Positions 19,761-27,860 of a DNA stretch of 64,000 bases are shown here, piece by piece. Source of the stretch: a virus; the IMG/VR virus record IMGVR_UViG_3300044691_000429, positions 1-64,000 of that record. One strand, written 5' to 3'. Under the pieces are notes generated by a model. The model searched no databases. It saw only the letters and a program-made list of their open reading frames with translations, and was not told the origin of the DNA. A program made the translations under genes and the position numbers. Positions within the stretch are counted from its first letter, which is position 1, and each line of letters starts with the position of its first letter.

Positions 19761-20407
19761 GCGACGACGACGGCATCGACCCATCGAACTCGGCGAACAG
19801 CCCGGACCCATCGAAGCCCCGCTGTTCAGCCCGCACCAGCCGTGGCCCCTGTGGGAACTACCCGGTACAGGGCGCCACTGTCTGCCGGTTCCACGGCGGC
19901 GCAGCACCCCAGGTGAAGGCGGCGGCGGGGAAGCGACTGGCGGTTGCCGAGTGGGCCCGCTCGTTCGGCGCCCCGGCGGAGGATGCCGACCCGTCGCAAA
20001 CGGTGCTGGACGAGATCCGGTGGTCCGCCGGCCACGTGGCGTGGCTGCGTGAGCGGGTCCAGGAGACGGAGCCCGAGGCGCTGGTGTGGGGTGTCGACTC
20101 CGAAGTGGAGAAAGGGGCGGGCGAGTTCACCGGCACCGACACCACCAGGGCGGCCAAGGCCAGCATGTGGGTGCAGTTGTACGGGCAGGAGCGGGACCGG
20201 CTGACGCGCATGTGCGAGGTCGCGCACCGTATGGGTATCGCCGCCCGGCAGGTGGAACTGGCGGAGCGCGTGGGCTCGCTGATGGCGGACCTGATCCGCG
20301 GTGTCCTCGGCGACCTCAGCCTGTCGGAGGAGCAGCAGCTGGTGGCGGCCGTTGCGGTGCCGCGGCACCTGCAGCTCATCGGGGGCGCGCTGGGTGGCGC
20401 TGCCTGA
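19757..20407 (+). CDS. Probable terminase small subunit
   Basis: 216 residues. N-terminal Cys/His motif CSARTSRGPCGNYPVQGATV followed by CRFHGG is a pattern I know from small-terminase-like proteins of actinophages, probably a zinc-binding DNA-recognition element. The rest is helical. It lies one small gene before the large terminase subunit, the expected place for the packaging recognition subunit. Confidence 0.65.
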   Translation: MSDDDGIDPSNSANSPDPSKPRCSARTSRGPCGNYPVQGATVCRFHGGAAPQVKAAAGKRLAVAEWARSFGAPAEDADPSQTVLDEIRWSAGHVAWLRERVQETEPEALVWGVDSEVEKGAGEFTGTDTTRAAKASMWVQLYGQERDRLTRMCEVAHRMGIAARQVELAERVGSLMADLIRGVLGDLSLSEEQQLVAAVAVPRHLQLIGGALGGAA

Positions 20408-20622
20408 TGACCGACTGGATTGACCGGATGCTCGCCGATGGGCTGGCCCGCGCCGGGGGCCTGTTCGCTCAGGAGCAGCATCTCGGGCAGCAGTTGTGGA
20501 GCGTCGGCGGGTGGCGCTGCTACGGGCGCATGATGCCCGATGGAAGCGCCTTGACGATCCGGCGTCCCGGGAAGGCGCTGGCCTACGAGATCGTCGGCGT
20601 GGACCTGGACGCCCTGAAGTGA
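20407..20622 (+). CDS. Hypothetical protein between terminase subunits
   Basis: 71 residues, overlapping both terminase genes by a few bases. Helical start (DWIDRMLADGLARAGGLF), beta-rich end (GWRCYGRMMPDGSALTIRRP). Probably co-translated with the packaging genes. Function unknown. Confidence 0.5.
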   Translation: MTDWIDRMLADGLARAGGLFAQEQHLGQQLWSVGGWRCYGRMMPDGSALTIRRPGKALAYEIVGVDLDALK

Positions 20623-23003
20623 CCATGGCGGTGGCTCCGGGGACGCTGCACCGGTACGAGCCTTGGGGTTCGGCGCTTGATTTGATGGAGTGCCGGCTGC
20701 CGCAGGTCTTGCTGTCGGGGCCGGCGGGTACGGGCAAGAGCCGGGCGTGCATGGAGAAGCTGCACCTGATGGCGTTGGCGAACCCGGGGATGCGCGGGCT
20801 GATCGTCCGCAAGACGCGGGAGTCGCTGGGGTCGACGGCGCTGGTGACGTGGCGGGAGCACGTGGCGAAGGAGGCGATCGCCGCAGGCATCGTGTCGTTC
20901 TACGGGGGCTCGGCGGAGGAGCCGCCGCAGTACCGGTACGTGAACGGCTCGAAGATCATGATCGGCGGAATGGACAAGCCGACGAAGATCATGTCTTCGG
21001 AGTACGACGTCGCCTACGTGCAGGAAGCCATCGAGCTGACGACCACCGACTGGGAGAACATCACCACCCGCCTCCGGAACGGCAAGGTCAGCTTTCAGCA
21101 GCTCATAGCGGACGCCAACCCCGACATGCCCAGCCACTGGCTCAAGCAGCACTGCGACCGCGGCACGGCCCGGATGGTCCACTGCCGCCACGAGGACAAC
21201 CCCGTCCTGTTCAACGCCGACGGCACCATGACGGTCAAGGGCGAGGCGTACATGAAGCTCCTGGATGCCCTGACCGGCGTCCGGCTGCAACGCCTGCGCC
21301 ACGGCCGCTGGGTGTCCGCAGAGGGCATGATCTACGAAGGCTTCGATCCCACCATTCACCTGGTCGATCAGTTCCCCATCCCGGACAGCTGGACGCGTTG
21401 GTGGTCGGTGGACTTCGGCTTCACCAACCCGTTCGTCTTGCAGTGCTGGGCTGAGGATCCTGACGGCCGGCTGTACCTCTACCGCGAGATCTACAAGACG
21501 AAGACTCTCGTCGAGGACCACGCGAAGCGGATCCTGCGCGAAGTCACGGCCTGCACCAACTGCTGCGATTCCACGGCCGACAGCCACGACTGCTACGAGT
21601 GCGACCGGTGCGGCAAGACGTGGACCGAACCGAAGCCGCGCGCGATCATCTGCGACCACGACGCGGAGGACCGGGCGACGCTGGAGCGGCACCTGGGCCT
21701 GTCCACCAGCCCGGCGCACAAGTCGGTGTCCGACGGGATCCAGGCCGTCAACACCCGCTACAAGGTGGCCGATGACGGCCGCGCGCGGCTGTTCATCGTG
21801 CGCGGTGCGGTAGTCGAGCGGGACGAGGCGCTCGACGCGGCGAAGAAGCCGTGCTGCACAGAGGAGGAGATCCCGGGTTACGTCTGGGATCGCGGTACTC
21901 CGTCGCAACAACTCGCGGACAAGCCGCCGAAGGAAGTCCCCGTGAAGATCAACGACCACGGGTGCCTCATCGCCGGAACGATGGTGGCCACTCCCGATGG
22001 CGAGCGCCCCATTGAGTCGATACGCGCGGGAGATCTGGTGATGACCCGTCGCGGCGCCCGTTCGGTCGTGGCGGCGGGGATGACTTCGCCGGAAGCCGTC
22101 ACGGTGTCGGTCGCTTTGAGTAATGAAAGGGTCCTGACGGGCACGGGGAATCACCCGGTGTGGGTAGCGGGGAAGGGTTGGATTCGGCTGGATGCGTTGC
22201 GATATGACGATAAGCTGGTTGCATGTCAGACACCGTCGTCTTCCGGGGTATCAGCTTCCGTCGATACCCCGACTCGCCTCATCTCGCCCAGCGGAACTAC
22301 TACACCCCCGGCATTGCTGACCGTAAGCGAGGGGTGCAACACCTCCACATCGAGATCTGGAAAGCTCACCACGGGTGCGCCGTCCCTCCTGGCTGCGAGA
22401 TCCACCACGTCGACCTCAACCCCCTCAACAACGACCTCGCCAACCTGGCCTGCCTCACCGTGGCCGAACACAAGGAAGTCCACCGCGAGCAGGGAAGGGT
22501 ACGCGGACGAACGCCTGAGTTCCGCGCTCACCTTGACCGAATACGACCCCTCACTGTCAACTGGCATCAGTCAGCCGATGGACGCGAGTGGCACAAGCAA
22601 CATGCGGCTGAGCAGGGCCTCGGCCACGGTGAGCAGCGGTCTTCCGTCTGCGATCACTGCGGGGGCGGGTACGAAACCGCCGTTGTCCACCGCCTCGATC
22701 GCTTCTGCTCCAACAAGTGCAAGTCGGCGGCACGCCGCGAGAGCGGAGTCGACAACGAGCAGCGGTCTTGCGCACGATGCGGAACCGAGTTCACCGTCAA
22801 CCGCTACGCCAAGAAGGAATGCTGCGGTCGTGTCTGTGCGCAGCGTCTCCGCGTCGACAGGGCCCGCGCCGGTGTTCAACCTGACGGTCGCTGACCAGCC
22901 GGAGTACTTCGCCAACGGCGCACTAGTCCACAACTGCGACGCAAAACGGTACGTGGTCGCCGAGCTCGACTTGGTCGGCCGGCCGAACATTCGCTGGCTC
23001 TGA
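20619..23003 (+). CDS. Terminase large subunit precursor, interrupted by an intein
   Basis: 794-residue precursor; removing the intein (residues 449-772) leaves about 470 residues, a normal TerL size. ATPase: Walker A GPAGTGKS (34-41), Walker B-like VAYVQEA. A zinc-knuckle-rich segment (CTNCC ... CYECDRCG) is inserted in the nuclease domain. Nuclease: WWSVDFGFTNPF carries the first Asp, ICDHDAED the second acidic group, and INDHG plus CDAKRY, joined only after splicing, restores the third active-site motif. TerL cuts and pumps phage DNA. GTG at 20619 overlaps the upstream stop; ATG at 20625 is an equal alternative. Confidence 0.93.
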   Translation: MTMAVAPGTLHRYEPWGSALDLMECRLPQVLLSGPAGTGKSRACMEKLHLMALANPGMRGLIVRKTRESLGSTALVTWREHVAKEAIAAGIVSFYGGSAEEPPQYRYVNGSKIMIGGMDKPTKIMSSEYDVAYVQEAIELTTTDWENITTRLRNGKVSFQQLIADANPDMPSHWLKQHCDRGTARMVHCRHEDNPVLFNADGTMTVKGEAYMKLLDALTGVRLQRLRHGRWVSAEGMIYEGFDPTIHLVDQFPIPDSWTRWWSVDFGFTNPFVLQCWAEDPDGRLYLYREIYKTKTLVEDHAKRILREVTACTNCCDSTADSHDCYECDRCGKTWTEPKPRAIICDHDAEDRATLERHLGLSTSPAHKSVSDGIQAVNTRYKVADDGRARLFIVRGAVVERDEALDAAKKPCCTEEEIPGYVWDRGTPSQQLADKPPKEVPVKINDHGCLIAGTMVATPDGERPIESIRAGDLVMTRRGARSVVAAGMTSPEAVTVSVALSNERVLTGTGNHPVWVAGKGWIRLDALRYDDKLVACQTPSSSGVSASVDTPTRLISPSGTTTPPALLTVSEGCNTSTSRSGKLTTGAPSLLAARSTTSTSTPSTTTSPTWPASPWPNTRKSTASREGYADERLSSALTLTEYDPSLSTGISQPMDASGTSNMRLSRASATVSSGLPSAITAGAGTKPPLSTASIASAPTSASRRHAARAESTTSSGLAHDAEPSSPSTATPRRNAAVVSVRSVSASTGPAPVFNLTVADQPEYFANGALVHNCDAKRYVVAELDLVGRPNIRWL
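21963..22934 (+). other. Intein in the terminase nuclease motif
   Basis: 324 residues within the terminase frame. Block A starts at the nucleophile Cys: CLIAGTMVATPDGERPI. Block B is TGNHPVW (about 61-67) with the catalytic His. C-terminal blocks F/G are VFNLTVADQPEYFANGALVHN, ending His-Asn with Cys as the first downstream residue, so every splicing residue is present. Between blocks B and F the frame encodes about 215 Ser/Thr/Pro/Ala-rich residues with no endonuclease motif; that DNA encodes an HNH protein in another frame. Without it the splicing domain is only about 108 residues, near the lower limit for a mini-intein. Confidence 0.92.
22223..22894 (+). CDS. HNH homing endonuclease nested out of frame inside the intein
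   Basis: A complete 223-residue gene in another frame than the terminase. ATG at 22223 lies right after intein block B and the TGA falls inside block F. N-terminal HNH domain: GVQHLHIEIWKAHHG, IHHVDLNPLNNDLANLACL (about 60-78), AEHKEVH with metal-binding His. C-terminal zinc fingers: CDHC...CSNKC (143-166) and CARC...CCGRVC (183-205). The layout resembles free-standing or intron-type HNH homing enzymes. No good ribosome binding site precedes the ATG. By hand count, 45 of the first 60 codons end in G/C, against 38 of 60 in the terminase frame. Confidence 0.88.
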   Translation: MSDTVVFRGISFRRYPDSPHLAQRNYYTPGIADRKRGVQHLHIEIWKAHHGCAVPPGCEIHHVDLNPLNNDLANLACLTVAEHKEVHREQGRVRGRTPEFRAHLDRIRPLTVNWHQSADGREWHKQHAAEQGLGHGEQRSSVCDHCGGGYETAVVHRLDRFCSNKCKSAARRESGVDNEQRSCARCGTEFTVNRYAKKECCGRVCAQRLRVDRARAGVQPDGR

Positions 23004-23046
23004 CCCACCGTAGGGTCACCATCTGTCACACATCTGGGAGGTTGCC

Positions 23047-23214
23047 ATGGGGAAGCTCTTGGCCCACGTACCGAAGAATTTCCTGCCTTTGGCCATCTTG
23101 ACAGGAGGATTTACACTCATCGCTGTAGGCTGCGGGATAATCGGCGGTTTGGGCGTGGGTCTCGTCGTCGGTGGCGTGCTCGCGTGCGTGATGCAGGCGG
23201 TGGCGTACAGCTAG
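23047..23214 (+). CDS. Small membrane protein between terminase and portal
   Basis: 55 residues, ATG after GGGAGG. Two hydrophobic stretches: LPLAILTGGFTLIAVGCGII and GVGLVVGGVLACVMQAV. Probably inserts as a hairpin with Gly-rich helices. It is not part of a standard packaging module, so it may be a moron gene; function unknown. Confidence 0.6.
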   Translation: MGKLLAHVPKNFLPLAILTGGFTLIAVGCGIIGGLGVGLVVGGVLACVMQAVAYS

Positions 23215-23227
23215 CAGAGGGGGTCTC

Positions 23228-24700
23228 ATGGGCAGAACGCTCCTGGACCCCCTCCGCAACCTCCGCAACGCCCTCCCGACCCCCGTCCCGTTCACCGCCG
23301 GCTCCGGCTCCCCCGTCGTCAACCTCCCCTGGACGTCCCGCAACGACGCGATATCCCAGATGCGCGCCATGGGCGCCGTCGGTGCGCTCTTCGCGATCGT
23401 GCACCGCACCAGCACCAGCACCGGACAGGTCAACTGGCGCCTGTGGACGAAGTCCAAGAGCGGACTCCCCGAGGACCGCAAGGAAGTCACCCGGCACGTC
23501 GCCCTCGACCTGTGGAACAAGCCGAACGACTACTACGTGCGGCAGGAGTTCGTCGAGACCGAGCAGCAGCACATCGACCTGACCGGCGAGGGCTGGTGGG
23601 TCGTCGGCCGCAGCGGGAAGGCCACGATCCCGCTGGAACTGTGGCCCGTCCGCCCCGACCGCATGGTCCCGGTGCCGCACCCCACGGAATTCCTGTCCGG
23701 GTACATGTACCTGTCGCCCGGCGGGGAGCAGATACCGCTGCTCCGCAACCAGGTCATCCAGCTGCGCATGCCCAACCCGCTGGATCCGTACCGGGGCATG
23801 GGCCCCGTGCAGTCGATCCTCCCCGACCTCGATGCGTCCCGGTACGCGGCGGTCTGGAACCGGAACTTCTTCCTCAACAGCGCCGAGCCCGGCGGCATCA
23901 TCCAGATGGACAAGAGCCTCGATGACCGCGACTTCGACCGGCTGTCCAAGCGCTGGAACGAGCAGCACAAGGGCATCGCCAACGCCCACCGCGTCGCCAT
24001 CATCGAGCAGGGCCAGTGGGTCGACCGGAAGATCACGCAGCGGGACATGCAGTTCGCCGAGCTGCGCACCATCACCTCCGACATGATCCGTGAGGCGTTC
24101 GGCATCCCCAAGTTCGCGGTCGGCGTGATCACGGACATCAACCGGGCCACCGCCGAAGCGGCCAAGGCATGGTTCGCGGAGCAGCTGACCGTGCCGCGCC
24201 TGGAGCGCTTCAAGCAGGCGCTCAACAACGACCTCTTGCCGATGTTCGGGCCGGCCGGCGTCGGCGTCGAGTTCGACTACGACAACCCGGTGCCGCCCGA
24301 CGCGGAGACGCAGAACGCGAAGCTGACCACGCAGGCCGCCGCCGCGAAGCTCCTGCGCGAGGCCGGCTACGACCCCGACGACGTCCTGTCCGTGGTCGGC
24401 CTGCCCGCGATGCGGCACACCACGACCCTCTCCCCCACCCCGACCGGGTTCGCCGAGCAGGCCGCCGCGCTCCTCGCGAAGAACAGCCGCCCGCAGGCTG
24501 CAGCGAAGGAGTGGGTTGTCGAGGCGCATGAAGACGGAGACGTCTGTCAGCCGTGTCACGACAACGACGGCCACACCTACGCCACTCAGGCCGACGCCTA
24601 CGCGGACTACCCGGGCGGCTCCGGCTACATCAAATGCCTCGGCGCGAAGAACTGCCGCTGCAAGATCGTCACACGCGGAAAGGCCAGCGACGATGCCTAA
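23228..24700 (+). CDS. Portal protein (HK97-type)
   Basis: 490 residues. GAVGALFAIVHRTSTSTGQV, VALDLWNKPNDYY, EGWWVVGRSG, QVIQLRMPNP and GIPKFAVGVITDINRATAEA are the segments seen in actinophage HK97-family portals; the wing-stem region with ELRTITSDMIREAFG is typical. The C-terminus adds CQPCHDNDGHTYATQAD and a Cys-rich end, like the MuF-type extension of some portal proteins. It forms the dodecameric DNA channel. Ribosome binding site AGAGGGGG, ATG start. Confidence 0.88.
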   Translation: MGRTLLDPLRNLRNALPTPVPFTAGSGSPVVNLPWTSRNDAISQMRAMGAVGALFAIVHRTSTSTGQVNWRLWTKSKSGLPEDRKEVTRHVALDLWNKPNDYYVRQEFVETEQQHIDLTGEGWWVVGRSGKATIPLELWPVRPDRMVPVPHPTEFLSGYMYLSPGGEQIPLLRNQVIQLRMPNPLDPYRGMGPVQSILPDLDASRYAAVWNRNFFLNSAEPGGIIQMDKSLDDRDFDRLSKRWNEQHKGIANAHRVAIIEQGQWVDRKITQRDMQFAELRTITSDMIREAFGIPKFAVGVITDINRATAEAAKAWFAEQLTVPRLERFKQALNNDLLPMFGPAGVGVEFDYDNPVPPDAETQNAKLTTQAAAAKLLREAGYDPDDVLSVVGLPAMRHTTTLSPTPTGFAEQAAALLAKNSRPQAAAKEWVVEAHEDGDVCQPCHDNDGHTYATQADAYADYPGGSGYIKCLGAKNCRCKIVTRGKASDDA

Positions 24701-25880
24701 GACCCGAAGCCGGCCGAGCATGCGGCAGTCCCGCGAGTGGTACAGCCTCCGCAACTCCGGTGCGACCACCGCCGAGCTCTACATCTATGACGAGATCGGC
24801 TACTGGGGCACGACCGCGAGCGACCTGGTGGCGGCCCTGTCGGAACTGCGGGGCGTTACCGCCATCGACGTCCACGTCAACTCCCCCGGCGGGGACGTCT
24901 TCGACGGCATCGCGATCATGAATTGCCTGCGGGCGTGCGCCGCGACCGTCACCGTCTACGTGGACGGCATCGCCGCCAGCATCGCCTCCGTCATCGCGAT
25001 GGCCGGCGACCGCATCATCATGGGCCCCCACTCGCAGCTCATGATCCACGACGCGTCCGGGCTGTGCCTGGGCAACGCCGAGGACATGACCGAGATGGCC
25101 ACGATGCTGAACTTCCAGTCCGACAACATCGCCGCCGTGTACGCCGAACGGACGGGCGGCACGGTGGAGGACTGGCGGGCGAAGATGTCCGTCGAGTCCT
25201 GGTACACCGCCGAGGAGGCGGTGGCTGCGGGGCTGGCCGATGAGGTGGCGCAGCGCCCCGCACCCGCTGCGCCCGGCGTGCCGATGGACAAGGCGTGGGA
25301 CCTCACGATGTTCGCCTACGCCGGCCGGGAGAAAGCCCCGGCGCCTGTCGTCGCGAAGGCTCCACCGGAGACGGTTGAAGTGAAGCCGGCCGTAGGCGAG
25401 CACGTCCTGACCCCGGCCGACGTGAAAGCCGCCGCTCCGTCCGAGCAGGCCAAGCCGGCGCTCACGATCAACATCGCGGAAGCTCTCGACGCGGAAACCG
25501 TCGAAGCGCTGCGGGCCGCGGTGCGCGATCGGGGCGCTGCCGCGGCCGTCGCAGAGTTCGGTATCTCTTTCACCTCCGAAGGCGTCCCGATCGAGCCCGT
25601 GGGGACGGGGCCGGACGGGACCGCCGCCGGCCAGGAGCCTCCCCCCGCGCCTGAGTCGGCGGCGCCCACCGAGCCCGAGGCCGCAGAGGCCCTCCTGGTC
25701 GTGCCCGGCGAAGACATCGCCACCCCGGAGACCGAACCGGCACCCGTCATCGAGCCCGAGCTCGAAGAAGAGCCCGAGCGACCCGACTCGTGGGCGGCAG
25801 CCGTCGCCCGCCTCACCACACCCCCCGCAGAGCCCACCGTGGGCGACCTGCTCGCTGCCCTCAGGGAGGCATCGCTGTGA
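24693..25880 (+). CDS. ClpP-like prohead protease, with long C-terminal extension
   Basis: 395 residues. The N-terminal ~190 are ClpP/S49-like: VNSPGGDVFDGIAI oxyanion loop, VDGIAASIASVIAMAG with catalytic Ser about residue 96, LMIHDASG with catalytic His about 118. The acidic, Pro/Glu/Ala-rich C-terminus, ending in a helix (VGDLLAALREASL), is probably a scaffold, as fused protease-scaffolds are common in phages. It overlaps the portal gene by 8 bases and the capsid gene by 4. It matures the procapsid. Confidence 0.88.
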   Translation: MPKTRSRPSMRQSREWYSLRNSGATTAELYIYDEIGYWGTTASDLVAALSELRGVTAIDVHVNSPGGDVFDGIAIMNCLRACAATVTVYVDGIAASIASVIAMAGDRIIMGPHSQLMIHDASGLCLGNAEDMTEMATMLNFQSDNIAAVYAERTGGTVEDWRAKMSVESWYTAEEAVAAGLADEVAQRPAPAAPGVPMDKAWDLTMFAYAGREKAPAPVVAKAPPETVEVKPAVGEHVLTPADVKAAAPSEQAKPALTINIAEALDAETVEALRAAVRDRGAAAAVAEFGISFTSEGVPIEPVGTGPDGTAAGQEPPPAPESAAPTEPEAAEALLVVPGEDIATPETEPAPVIEPELEEEPERPDSWAAAVARLTTPPAEPTVGDLLAALREASL

Positions 25881-27325
25881 TCGGAACCAAGCCCACCCCC
25901 GGGCAGCGCCACAAGCTCCACCGCATGGGCGTCAGTGCCCGCCGCGTCGGCCGCACCTTCAACCGGGCGACGCTGCCGGTGCCGAAGAACGCCGCCGAGC
26001 TCGAAGAGATGCTCAACGACGGCGCCAAGTCGCAGGAGATCCTCAAGGACAAGGAGTCCCTGAAGAACTTCATCACCGACTACGCCAAGGAGCAGCAGGG
26101 CGACGGCACCGAGCTGCGGCGCACCATCACCGACGAGACCACGCGCGTCCTGACGCAGATGCTGAAGGAGAAGGAGGTCTCCGACAAGGAAGCCGACGGC
26201 ATCCGCCGCCTGAACCTGGACCCGCAGACTCGCCCGGTCAACATGCTGACCAGCCACCGGCAGGCCGCGGCGTACAACCCGAAGGCCAGCGGTGCGGTCC
26301 TCGACAAGGAGTTCAAGTCGGCGGCGGAATTCTTCGCGACCGCCTGGCACCTGAACCCGAACCCCGAGGCGCGCGGGCGGATGGAGTCGCTCCGCAACGC
26401 GTACAGCAGCACGGTTCCGGCCGACGGCGGGTTCCTCGTCCCGGAGACGCTGCGGTCCCAGCTGCTCCAGATCGCGCTGGAGATGGCCATCATCCGGCCG
26501 CGCGCGACGGTCGTCCCGATGGAGACGGCCCGCGTGCCGTTCCCGATGATCGACGTCACGAGCAACCAGCTCTCCGTCTTCGGCGGGATGGTGGCCTTCT
26601 GGGGCGAGGAGGGCGCGGCCCTCATCGACTCCTCGGCGAAGTTCGGGCGGGTCGTCCTGGACGCGAAGAAGCTGACGGGCCTGAGCATCGTCCCGAACGA
26701 GCTGCTCACCGACTCGCTGCTGTCGTTCGCGGCGCTGATCGAGGCGCTGTGGCCGAAGGCGCTGGCGTTCTACGAGGACATCGGTTTCCTGACCGGGTCC
26801 GGCGTCGGCGAGCCGCTCGGCGCGCTCGGCAACCCGGCGACCGTCGCTGTCGCTGCCGAGTCCGGCCAGGCGTCTGGCACCATCCAGCTCGAAAACATCA
26901 TCAAGATGTACGCCCGCATGCTCCCGAGCTCGCTGGGCCAGGGCGTGTGGCTGGCCACCCCCGAGGCGTTCCCGCAGCTCATGACCATGGCACTGTCGGT
27001 GGGCACCGGCGGCTCCGCGGTCATGCTCACCAACGCCGCCGGGCCGGCGCCGATGACCGTCCTCGGCCGCCCGCTGATCATCACCGAGAAGGCCAAGCAG
27101 CTCGGCGCGCAGGGCGACCTCGCGTTCGTCGACCTCTCGTATTACCTCGTGGGCGACCGCCAGCAGATGACCGCGGCCAGCAGCACGGACTACAAGTTCG
27201 GCAACGACCAGACCGCGTTCCGCCTGATCGAGCGTGTCGACGGCCAGCCGTGGATCAAGTCCCCGATCACCCCGCAGAACGGCGGACCGGCCCTGTCCCC
27301 CTTCGTGGAGCTGGCTGCCCGCTAA
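25877..27325 (+). CDS. Major capsid protein (HK97 fold)
   Basis: 482 residues, GTG after GGGAGG. A helical N-terminal region (delta-like, about 1-120) precedes the HK97-fold core: YSSTVPADGGFLVPETLRSQ, MIDVTSNQLSVFGGMVAFWG, VVLDAKKLTGLSIVPNELL, IGFLTGSGVGEPLGALG and the C-terminal AFVDLSYYLVGDRQQM then AFRLIERVDGQPW. This pattern is typical of phage_capsid proteins processed by a ClpP-like protease, which is the gene just upstream. Confidence 0.92.
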   Translation: MIGTKPTPGQRHKLHRMGVSARRVGRTFNRATLPVPKNAAELEEMLNDGAKSQEILKDKESLKNFITDYAKEQQGDGTELRRTITDETTRVLTQMLKEKEVSDKEADGIRRLNLDPQTRPVNMLTSHRQAAAYNPKASGAVLDKEFKSAAEFFATAWHLNPNPEARGRMESLRNAYSSTVPADGGFLVPETLRSQLLQIALEMAIIRPRATVVPMETARVPFPMIDVTSNQLSVFGGMVAFWGEEGAALIDSSAKFGRVVLDAKKLTGLSIVPNELLTDSLLSFAALIEALWPKALAFYEDIGFLTGSGVGEPLGALGNPATVAVAAESGQASGTIQLENIIKMYARMLPSSLGQGVWLATPEAFPQLMTMALSVGTGGSAVMLTNAAGPAPMTVLGRPLIITEKAKQLGAQGDLAFVDLSYYLVGDRQQMTAASSTDYKFGNDQTAFRLIERVDGQPWIKSPITPQNGGPALSPFVELAAR

Positions 27326-27422
27326 CCCTCTCGGCCGGCGCCGGCAATCGACCCCCGGCGCCGGAGTTCGACCGGTCCGGCAGCGCCGCCCCGGACCGCA
27401 CCACAAGCGAAAGGCACGACCC

Positions 27423-27860
27423 ATGGCACAGAAGGCCCTCGGGCGCCTCTTCAACTTCACCCCCGCCGGTGACGGCACGTGGATCAACCTCAAGGACTGC
27501 GGCGGCGTCACCTTCGCCTGCTACCTGTCCGGCGCAGCGGGCGACGTGTACACCCTCCAGGAAGCCAAGGACGCCGCGGGTACCGGTGCGCAGAACCTGC
27601 CGGTCATCTCCACGTTCTGGACGAACACCGGCAACGGCACCGACGCGTGGACGATCCACTCTCAGGCTGCCGTGGCGACCGCCACCACGACCGCCACCGC
27701 TACGCAGAACGCGATGGTCGTCGAAGTCCTCGGGACCTCGCTGGACGACGGTTACAAGTTCGTGAAGCTCACGTCCACCGGCGCGGGCCTCGTCAACGTC
27801 CTGACCACGGACCTCAAAACCCAGCGCAGCCCGTCGAACCTCCCCGCGATGGGGGTCTGA
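27423..27860 (+). CDS. Probable capsid decoration or structural protein
   Basis: 145 residues, ATG after AAAGG. Beta-rich, Gly/Thr/Ala-rich sequence (GRLFNFTPAGDGTWINLKDC, VISTFWTNTGNGTDAWTIHS) without charged helices. Position right after the capsid gene is that of decoration proteins. Function inferred from place. Confidence 0.6.
   Translation: MAQKALGRLFNFTPAGDGTWINLKDCGGVTFACYLSGAAGDVYTLQEAKDAAGTGAQNLPVISTFWTNTGNGTDAWTIHSQAAVATATTTATATQNAMVVEVLGTSLDDGYKFVKLTSTGAGLVNVLTTDLKTQRSPSNLPAMGV

Follow-up and report, generated by a model that had tools for sequence, protein, structure and literature searches.

A terminase intein that shares its DNA with a predicted, out-of-frame HNH endonuclease gene

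The gene for the terminase large subunit (terL) in a 64,000-nucleotide (nt) stretch of viral DNA, hereafter the window (positions 1 to 64,000 of the 93,141-base IMG/VR virus record IMGVR_UViG_3300044691_000429), appears to carry a mobile intein whose homing endonuclease is encoded by an overlapping gene instead of forming a domain of the intein, a reading to which we assign a probability of about 0.85. It builds on an original prediction, made from the sequence alone, of a terL intein and of an HNH endonuclease gene nested within it in another frame.

A splicing domain and an HNH gene in one stretch of DNA

The relevant features, all on the plus strand, are the following (pLDDT, predicted local distance difference test):

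20625..23003, plus strand: terL coding sequence, intein and stop codon included (Terminase_3, E=5.8e-11; phrog_2 terL, 4e-34)
21963..22934, plus strand: intein of 324 codons, from Cys1 to His-Asn and then Cys+1 (Hint_2/PT-HINT/Intein_splicing; empty site in P1312 and Dagobah)
21963..22232, plus strand: intein residues 1-90, which make up the N-terminal half of the splicing (Hint) domain (pLDDT ~97; Foldseek)
22143..22154, plus strand: intein block B, T-G-N-H, residues 61-64 (sequence; alignment of 54 inteins conserving T61 and H64)
22211..22213, plus strand: TAA stop that closes the HNH frame 9 nt ahead of the gene's ATG (sequence)
22223..22894, plus strand: nested HNH/zinc-finger endonuclease gene, 223 codons and stop, frame +2/-1 relative to terL (Pfam HNH_3, E=1.8e-12; PHROG HNH endonuclease phrog_15471, 8e-36; AlphaFold model, mean pLDDT 95)
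22340..22471, plus strand: HNH domain, residues 40-83, with invariant H61, H62, N70, N74 and H83 (Pfam HNH_3; alignment of 60 sequences)
22649..22720, plus strand: first Cys-rich (zinc-binding-like) module, C143, C146, C162 and C166 (invariant or nearly invariant in 60 sequences)
22769..22837, plus strand: second Cys-rich module, C183, C186, C201 and C205 (cysteines invariant in 60 sequences)
22827..22934, plus strand: intein residues 289-324 with blocks F and G, which make up the C-terminal Hint half (pLDDT ~96)

By its sequence, the terL frame (its start assumed at ATG 20625, with GTG 20496 as the alternative) encodes a complete class-1-type intein that would be expected to perform protein splicing. 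The original prediction had recognised blocks A, B, F and G together with Cys1, the final His-Asn and Cys+1, and this is borne out by the sequence blocks (block B of the T-x-x-H form, block F reading VFNLTV..EYFA, and block G reading ALVHN before the C that provides the +1 nucleophile), by Pfam matches in this frame (Hint_2 E=6e-9, PT-HINT 8e-9, Intein_splicing 1.3e-6) and by the empty site of intein-less relatives. C1, H64 and N324 are invariant in an alignment of 54 related inteins, and the AlphaFold model of the intein, in which residues 1-90 and 290-324 reach a pLDDT near 97 and residues 94-285 are disordered, has the Hint fold, matching the gp41-1, RecA and DnaB inteins in Foldseek. The intein is contiguous, its halves lying on a single open reading frame (ORF), and is inserted at the TerL nuclease motif. 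Alignment of terL with and without the insertion, which the original prediction had proposed as a check, revealed an exact site: NDHG and CDAKRYVVAE, which flank the window intein, align gap-free with DDHGMDAMRYMVAH of Thermobifida phage P1312 and DDHGMDALRYMVAF of Streptomyces phage Dagobah. The +1 residue is Met in these intein-less proteins and Cys, the residue that splicing requires, in the window.

A Pfam search of the intein frame found no endonuclease family, in agreement with the predicted lack of such a motif, and the nested gene with its own ATG is equally well supported by the family matches listed above. An HNH profile also matches I-HmuI (E=0.0038). Since Foldseek gave no significant structural match for the HNH model, the assignment rests on sequence families, which point to a putative HNH_3, I-HmuI-like endonuclease that would cut the empty allele and promote homing. 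The further claim that this gene fills exactly the usual endonuclease position of inteins holds in part: the gene does lie inside the intein, but its 3' end overlaps ~50 nt of the C-terminal Hint part.

Homologues, reading register and selection

Viral contigs and genomes scanned for this HNH, then read frame by frame and pooled with a second scan, some contigs being found by both, provided 152 nested cases representing 127 distinct sequences. These span 31-66% guanine plus cytosine (GC) and come from many habitats and hosts; in all 127 the HNH lies outside the splicing frame and the register is the same, -1 relative to terL. Among the sampled host ORFs, 38 of 39 match PHROG terL and 38 match Pfam Intein_splicing. 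All insertion points fall in the motif D-[ND]-H-x-x-D-A-x-R-Y, a few residues apart from one another. When a divergent HNH of the split type served as the query, the scan returned near-copies only. A separate scan was blind to the HNH, its query consisting of the intein C-terminus and extein only, and yielded 84 terL inteins at 80 loci. An out-of-frame HNH in the same register is present in 73 of them (three of which lose the N-part at a contig end), the other 11 are mini-inteins of 128-145 amino acids (aa), and this HNH was found in the splicing frame of none of the 84. Such an in-frame homologue had been named in the original prediction as the sign of a simple frameshift or sequencing error, and as none of the homologues found has the HNH in the splicing frame, a local error of either kind is ruled out.

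Across 71 distinct loci, codon shuffling leads one to expect 144 host-frame stops opposite the HNH gene and none is seen, a zero that is partly built in, given that a spanning host ORF was a condition for including a locus; the other forward frame holds 1228 stops against 1282 expected. It is because of this selection of loci that the control with free-standing HNH relatives matters, and these contain 43 stops where 46.5 are expected. The fixed register is explained by the different stop density of the two frames, the HNH gene having ~2 potential stops in the host-frame register and ~18 in the other frame.

Selection acts differently on the parts of the element. In 14 close pairs the ratio of nonsynonymous to synonymous polymorphism (pN/pS) is 0.26 for the HNH frame, 0.30 for the N-terminal Hint part and 1.28 for the intein-frame reading opposite the HNH, and substitutions fall mainly at the third HNH codon position (359/294/791 for positions 1/2/3). 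In relatives, constraint extends to both frames where the HNH tail overlaps the folded Hint C-terminus (0.42 and 0.55). Hint and HNH are both under purifying selection and the intein-frame reading of the overlap evolves without constraint, a pattern with which the disorder of the linker in the AlphaFold model agrees. Absence of HNH conservation in the nested frame had been put forward as grounds for rejecting the original claim; by this ratio and by the alignments, the HNH is strongly conserved.

Translation, proposed mechanism and competing explanations

The best reading of the sequences is that the HNH protein would be made by independent initiation and not by frameshifting, as had been predicted, because a stop closes the HNH frame upstream of the gene (a median of 13.5 nt before the start codon in the nested relatives), start codons are near-universal (ATG 136, GTG 11 and TTG 3; n=152), the predicted Shine-Dalgarno pairing at 123 distinct HNH starts is as strong as at long ORFs (p=0.28) and stronger than at other ATGs (p=4e-6), and a slippery heptamer occurs in the stop-to-start interval in only 10 of the 123. 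Programmed -1 ribosomal frameshifting, which would produce a fusion of the N-terminal intein half (IntN) and the HNH instead of a separately initiated protein, could draw on the constant -1 position of the HNH frame, the commonest direction of such events. Stop density accounts for that register, however, and with the HNH frame closed shortly before its start and no slippery site conserved, this route is very unlikely.

According to the proposed mechanism, translation of terL would give a precursor in which the two Hint halves are joined by a meaningless linker of ~190 residues, namely the HNH gene read out of frame, and the Hint domain would excise itself to restore TerL. A separate ribosome would initiate at ATG 22223 on the same messenger RNA and release a free 223-aa HNH zinc-finger nuclease, which would cut the conserved nuclease motif (DHG^MDA.RY) of terL alleles that lack the intein, the intein being copied into the cut allele during repair. 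Splicing, HNH expression and site-specific cutting are thus predicted steps; the distribution of the element, including its loss forms, is consistent with homing.

Several points weigh against a mobile intein with an overlapping homing endonuclease. Homing is something that we infer from position, family and distribution; the HNH start of the window has a weak Shine-Dalgarno sequence; and HNH and Hint distances correlate only moderately (r=0.32). The same HNH family also has free-standing members, which lie next to terL in PAE1 and EauM-23 and precede terS in BP10. Synonymous-codon shuffles of the window HNH gene leave the intein frame open in 13% of cases (P=0.13), a non-significant result because the DNA is 64% GC, so that the window locus alone could be chance; the set of homologues could not. 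This last figure is what an explanation by a chance open frame in GC-rich DNA, or by a frameshift mutation or assembly error of an in-frame endonuclease, can call upon, but with 127 distinct nested sequences of such varied GC, never one in frame, and the nested layout also present in several GenBank genomes, the explanation is close to negligible.

HNH genes next to terL in other phages have been proposed to act as packaging cofactors, and the free-standing relatives near terL and terS would suit a nested HNH that assists the terminase in DNA packaging rather than homing. Nevertheless, mini-intein phages have lost the HNH, with no HNH relatives in the fetched flanks at eight of nine mini-intein loci (the ninth, L196, has an HNH solely in its second intein), degraded HNH copies exist, no HNH is annotated next to terL in the intein-less P1312 and Dagobah, and the nearest families of the protein are HNH_3 and I-HmuI, which makes such a role unlikely. 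HNH genes are also typical passengers of group I introns, and the question of an HNH within such an intron has been discussed for the ShiLan domain of phage methylases (PMC11855218). Were the insertion removed as RNA by a self-splicing intron, the open terL frame would be incidental; yet Rfam gave no match up to E=1 within 20400-23400, stops are avoided in the host frame, and that frame preserves the Hint fold and its catalytic residues at a pN/pS of 0.30, leaving this possibility extremely improbable.

Distribution, precedents and significance

The nested form of this terL intein is also present in GenBank, in Tetrasphaera phage TJE1, Acinetobacter phage Highwayman, a Rhodobacteraceae phage genome (LS06-2018-MD07) and a Halobacterium plasmid carrying phage genes (Halobacterium sp. 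GSL-19 pGSL19_54.9, locus L199), and each of these four copies is annotated as one terminase or Hint protein. The plasmid carries terL, with the nested HNH intein in it, and portal genes; it looks like a provirus or phage-plasmid, and its intein takes the nested class into archaeal viruses. Among loss forms, L182 and L183 have lost the HNH core with the host frame still open, and in L193 and L195 the HNH reading is broken. A split form occurs at about a dozen loci, where an ORF for TerL-N and IntN ends before the HNH gene and a second, short ORF encodes the C-terminal intein half (IntC) and TerL-C. In the HNH tree the nested, split and free-standing forms are intermixed (14 changes, below every shuffle). 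The HNH beside terL in HCTV-5 was considered as a nested case and rejected, being a separate flanking gene.

Likely split-intein terL genes, their halves separated by an HNH gene of this family, were seen at L030, L043, L051, L072/L091, L074, L080, L083, L090, L095 and L098, and among named phages in Brochothrix phage BL3 (L006), Lactobacillus phage CL2 (L202) and Vibrio phage 1.238.A (L200); the ORF for IntC and the TerL C-terminus is unannotated in CL2 and a 'hedgehog/hint domain protein' in Vibrio phage 1.238.A. The free-standing HNH genes of L014 and L026 branch within nested clades with starred support, which suggests that the HNH enzyme moves in and out of inteins. Some terL genes hold two inteins: the single terL at 2347-4096 of L141 has an out-of-frame HNH in each, and L179, L184 and L196 have mini-inteins among theirs, the first intein of L179 and L184 lying at the ATP-binding motif (GKT) and not at the nuclease motif. 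In the window itself, long antisense ORFs of 523-731 aa on the minus strand (20583-22154, 23117-24769 and 25316-27511) are most likely a side effect of high-GC plus-strand coding.

In textbook inteins the endonuclease is a domain fused in frame. Dassa et al. 2009 reportedly described fractured genes and split inteins whose halves are separated by a free endonuclease gene. These, for which MIJ3 PolB provides a comparison case (PMC6892783), resemble the present element in having an independent endonuclease gene at the endonuclease position of the intein, and about a dozen terL loci have the same form, whereas the window and most of its relatives have a contiguous intein that shares DNA with the endonuclease. 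In the in-frame HNH_3 intein of the cyanophage CL131 dCTP deaminase (PMC6293099) the HNH likewise lies at the usual insertion point between the Hint halves, but Hint and HNH form one polypeptide, in contrast to the separate frames of the window. The closest likeness is the ShiLan domain, described in 2025 as an out-of-frame HNH insertion and, in its authors' conclusion, not an intein: an HNH of 195 aa with zinc-finger modules lies out of frame, the host frame is open (PMC11855218; also Applejack, PMC12613952), and the distribution is disjunct and homing-like. However, its authors find no splicing domain and regard the insertion as retained in the protein, the host gene is another one and examples are few, while the window class occurs in terL, with more than 100 examples, and has a complete intein in the host frame, the window insertion containing a full Hint domain. 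The literature searched, which covered few preprints or subscription journals, contained no description of an endonuclease out of frame within an intein, and only the ShiLan papers surfaced; a 2025 preprint by the same authors (doi 10.1101/2025.01.02.630785, cited in PMC11855218) announces in its title actinobacteriophage inteins with 'non-canonical architecture'. Out-of-frame HNH insertion is hence already known from ShiLan, and an out-of-frame HNH inside an intein appears to be new, priority being subject to that preprint.

From a broader perspective, and with less confidence than for the window itself, it seems probable that these elements form a large and ancient class of mobile inteins in terL of bacterial and archaeal viruses, in which the gene for the homing endonuclease overlaps the intein completely, keeps to one alternative frame and is translated independently. 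If so, any frame-breaking indel would kill TerL, which would tie the integrity of the enzyme to an essential gene, and such elements may be a route of origin of mini-inteins and split inteins, offering a testable link between these and the contiguous form. Inteins would not need to carry the endonuclease within the same protein, as endonuclease and splicing could be separate products of the same DNA, and overlapping endonucleases of this kind escape annotation, as in TJE1, Highwayman, MD07 and GSL-19. The class also supplies more than 100 natural long overlaps with one neutral side and, for protein engineering, suggests that the Hint halves of this family tolerate ~190 effectively arbitrary linker residues.
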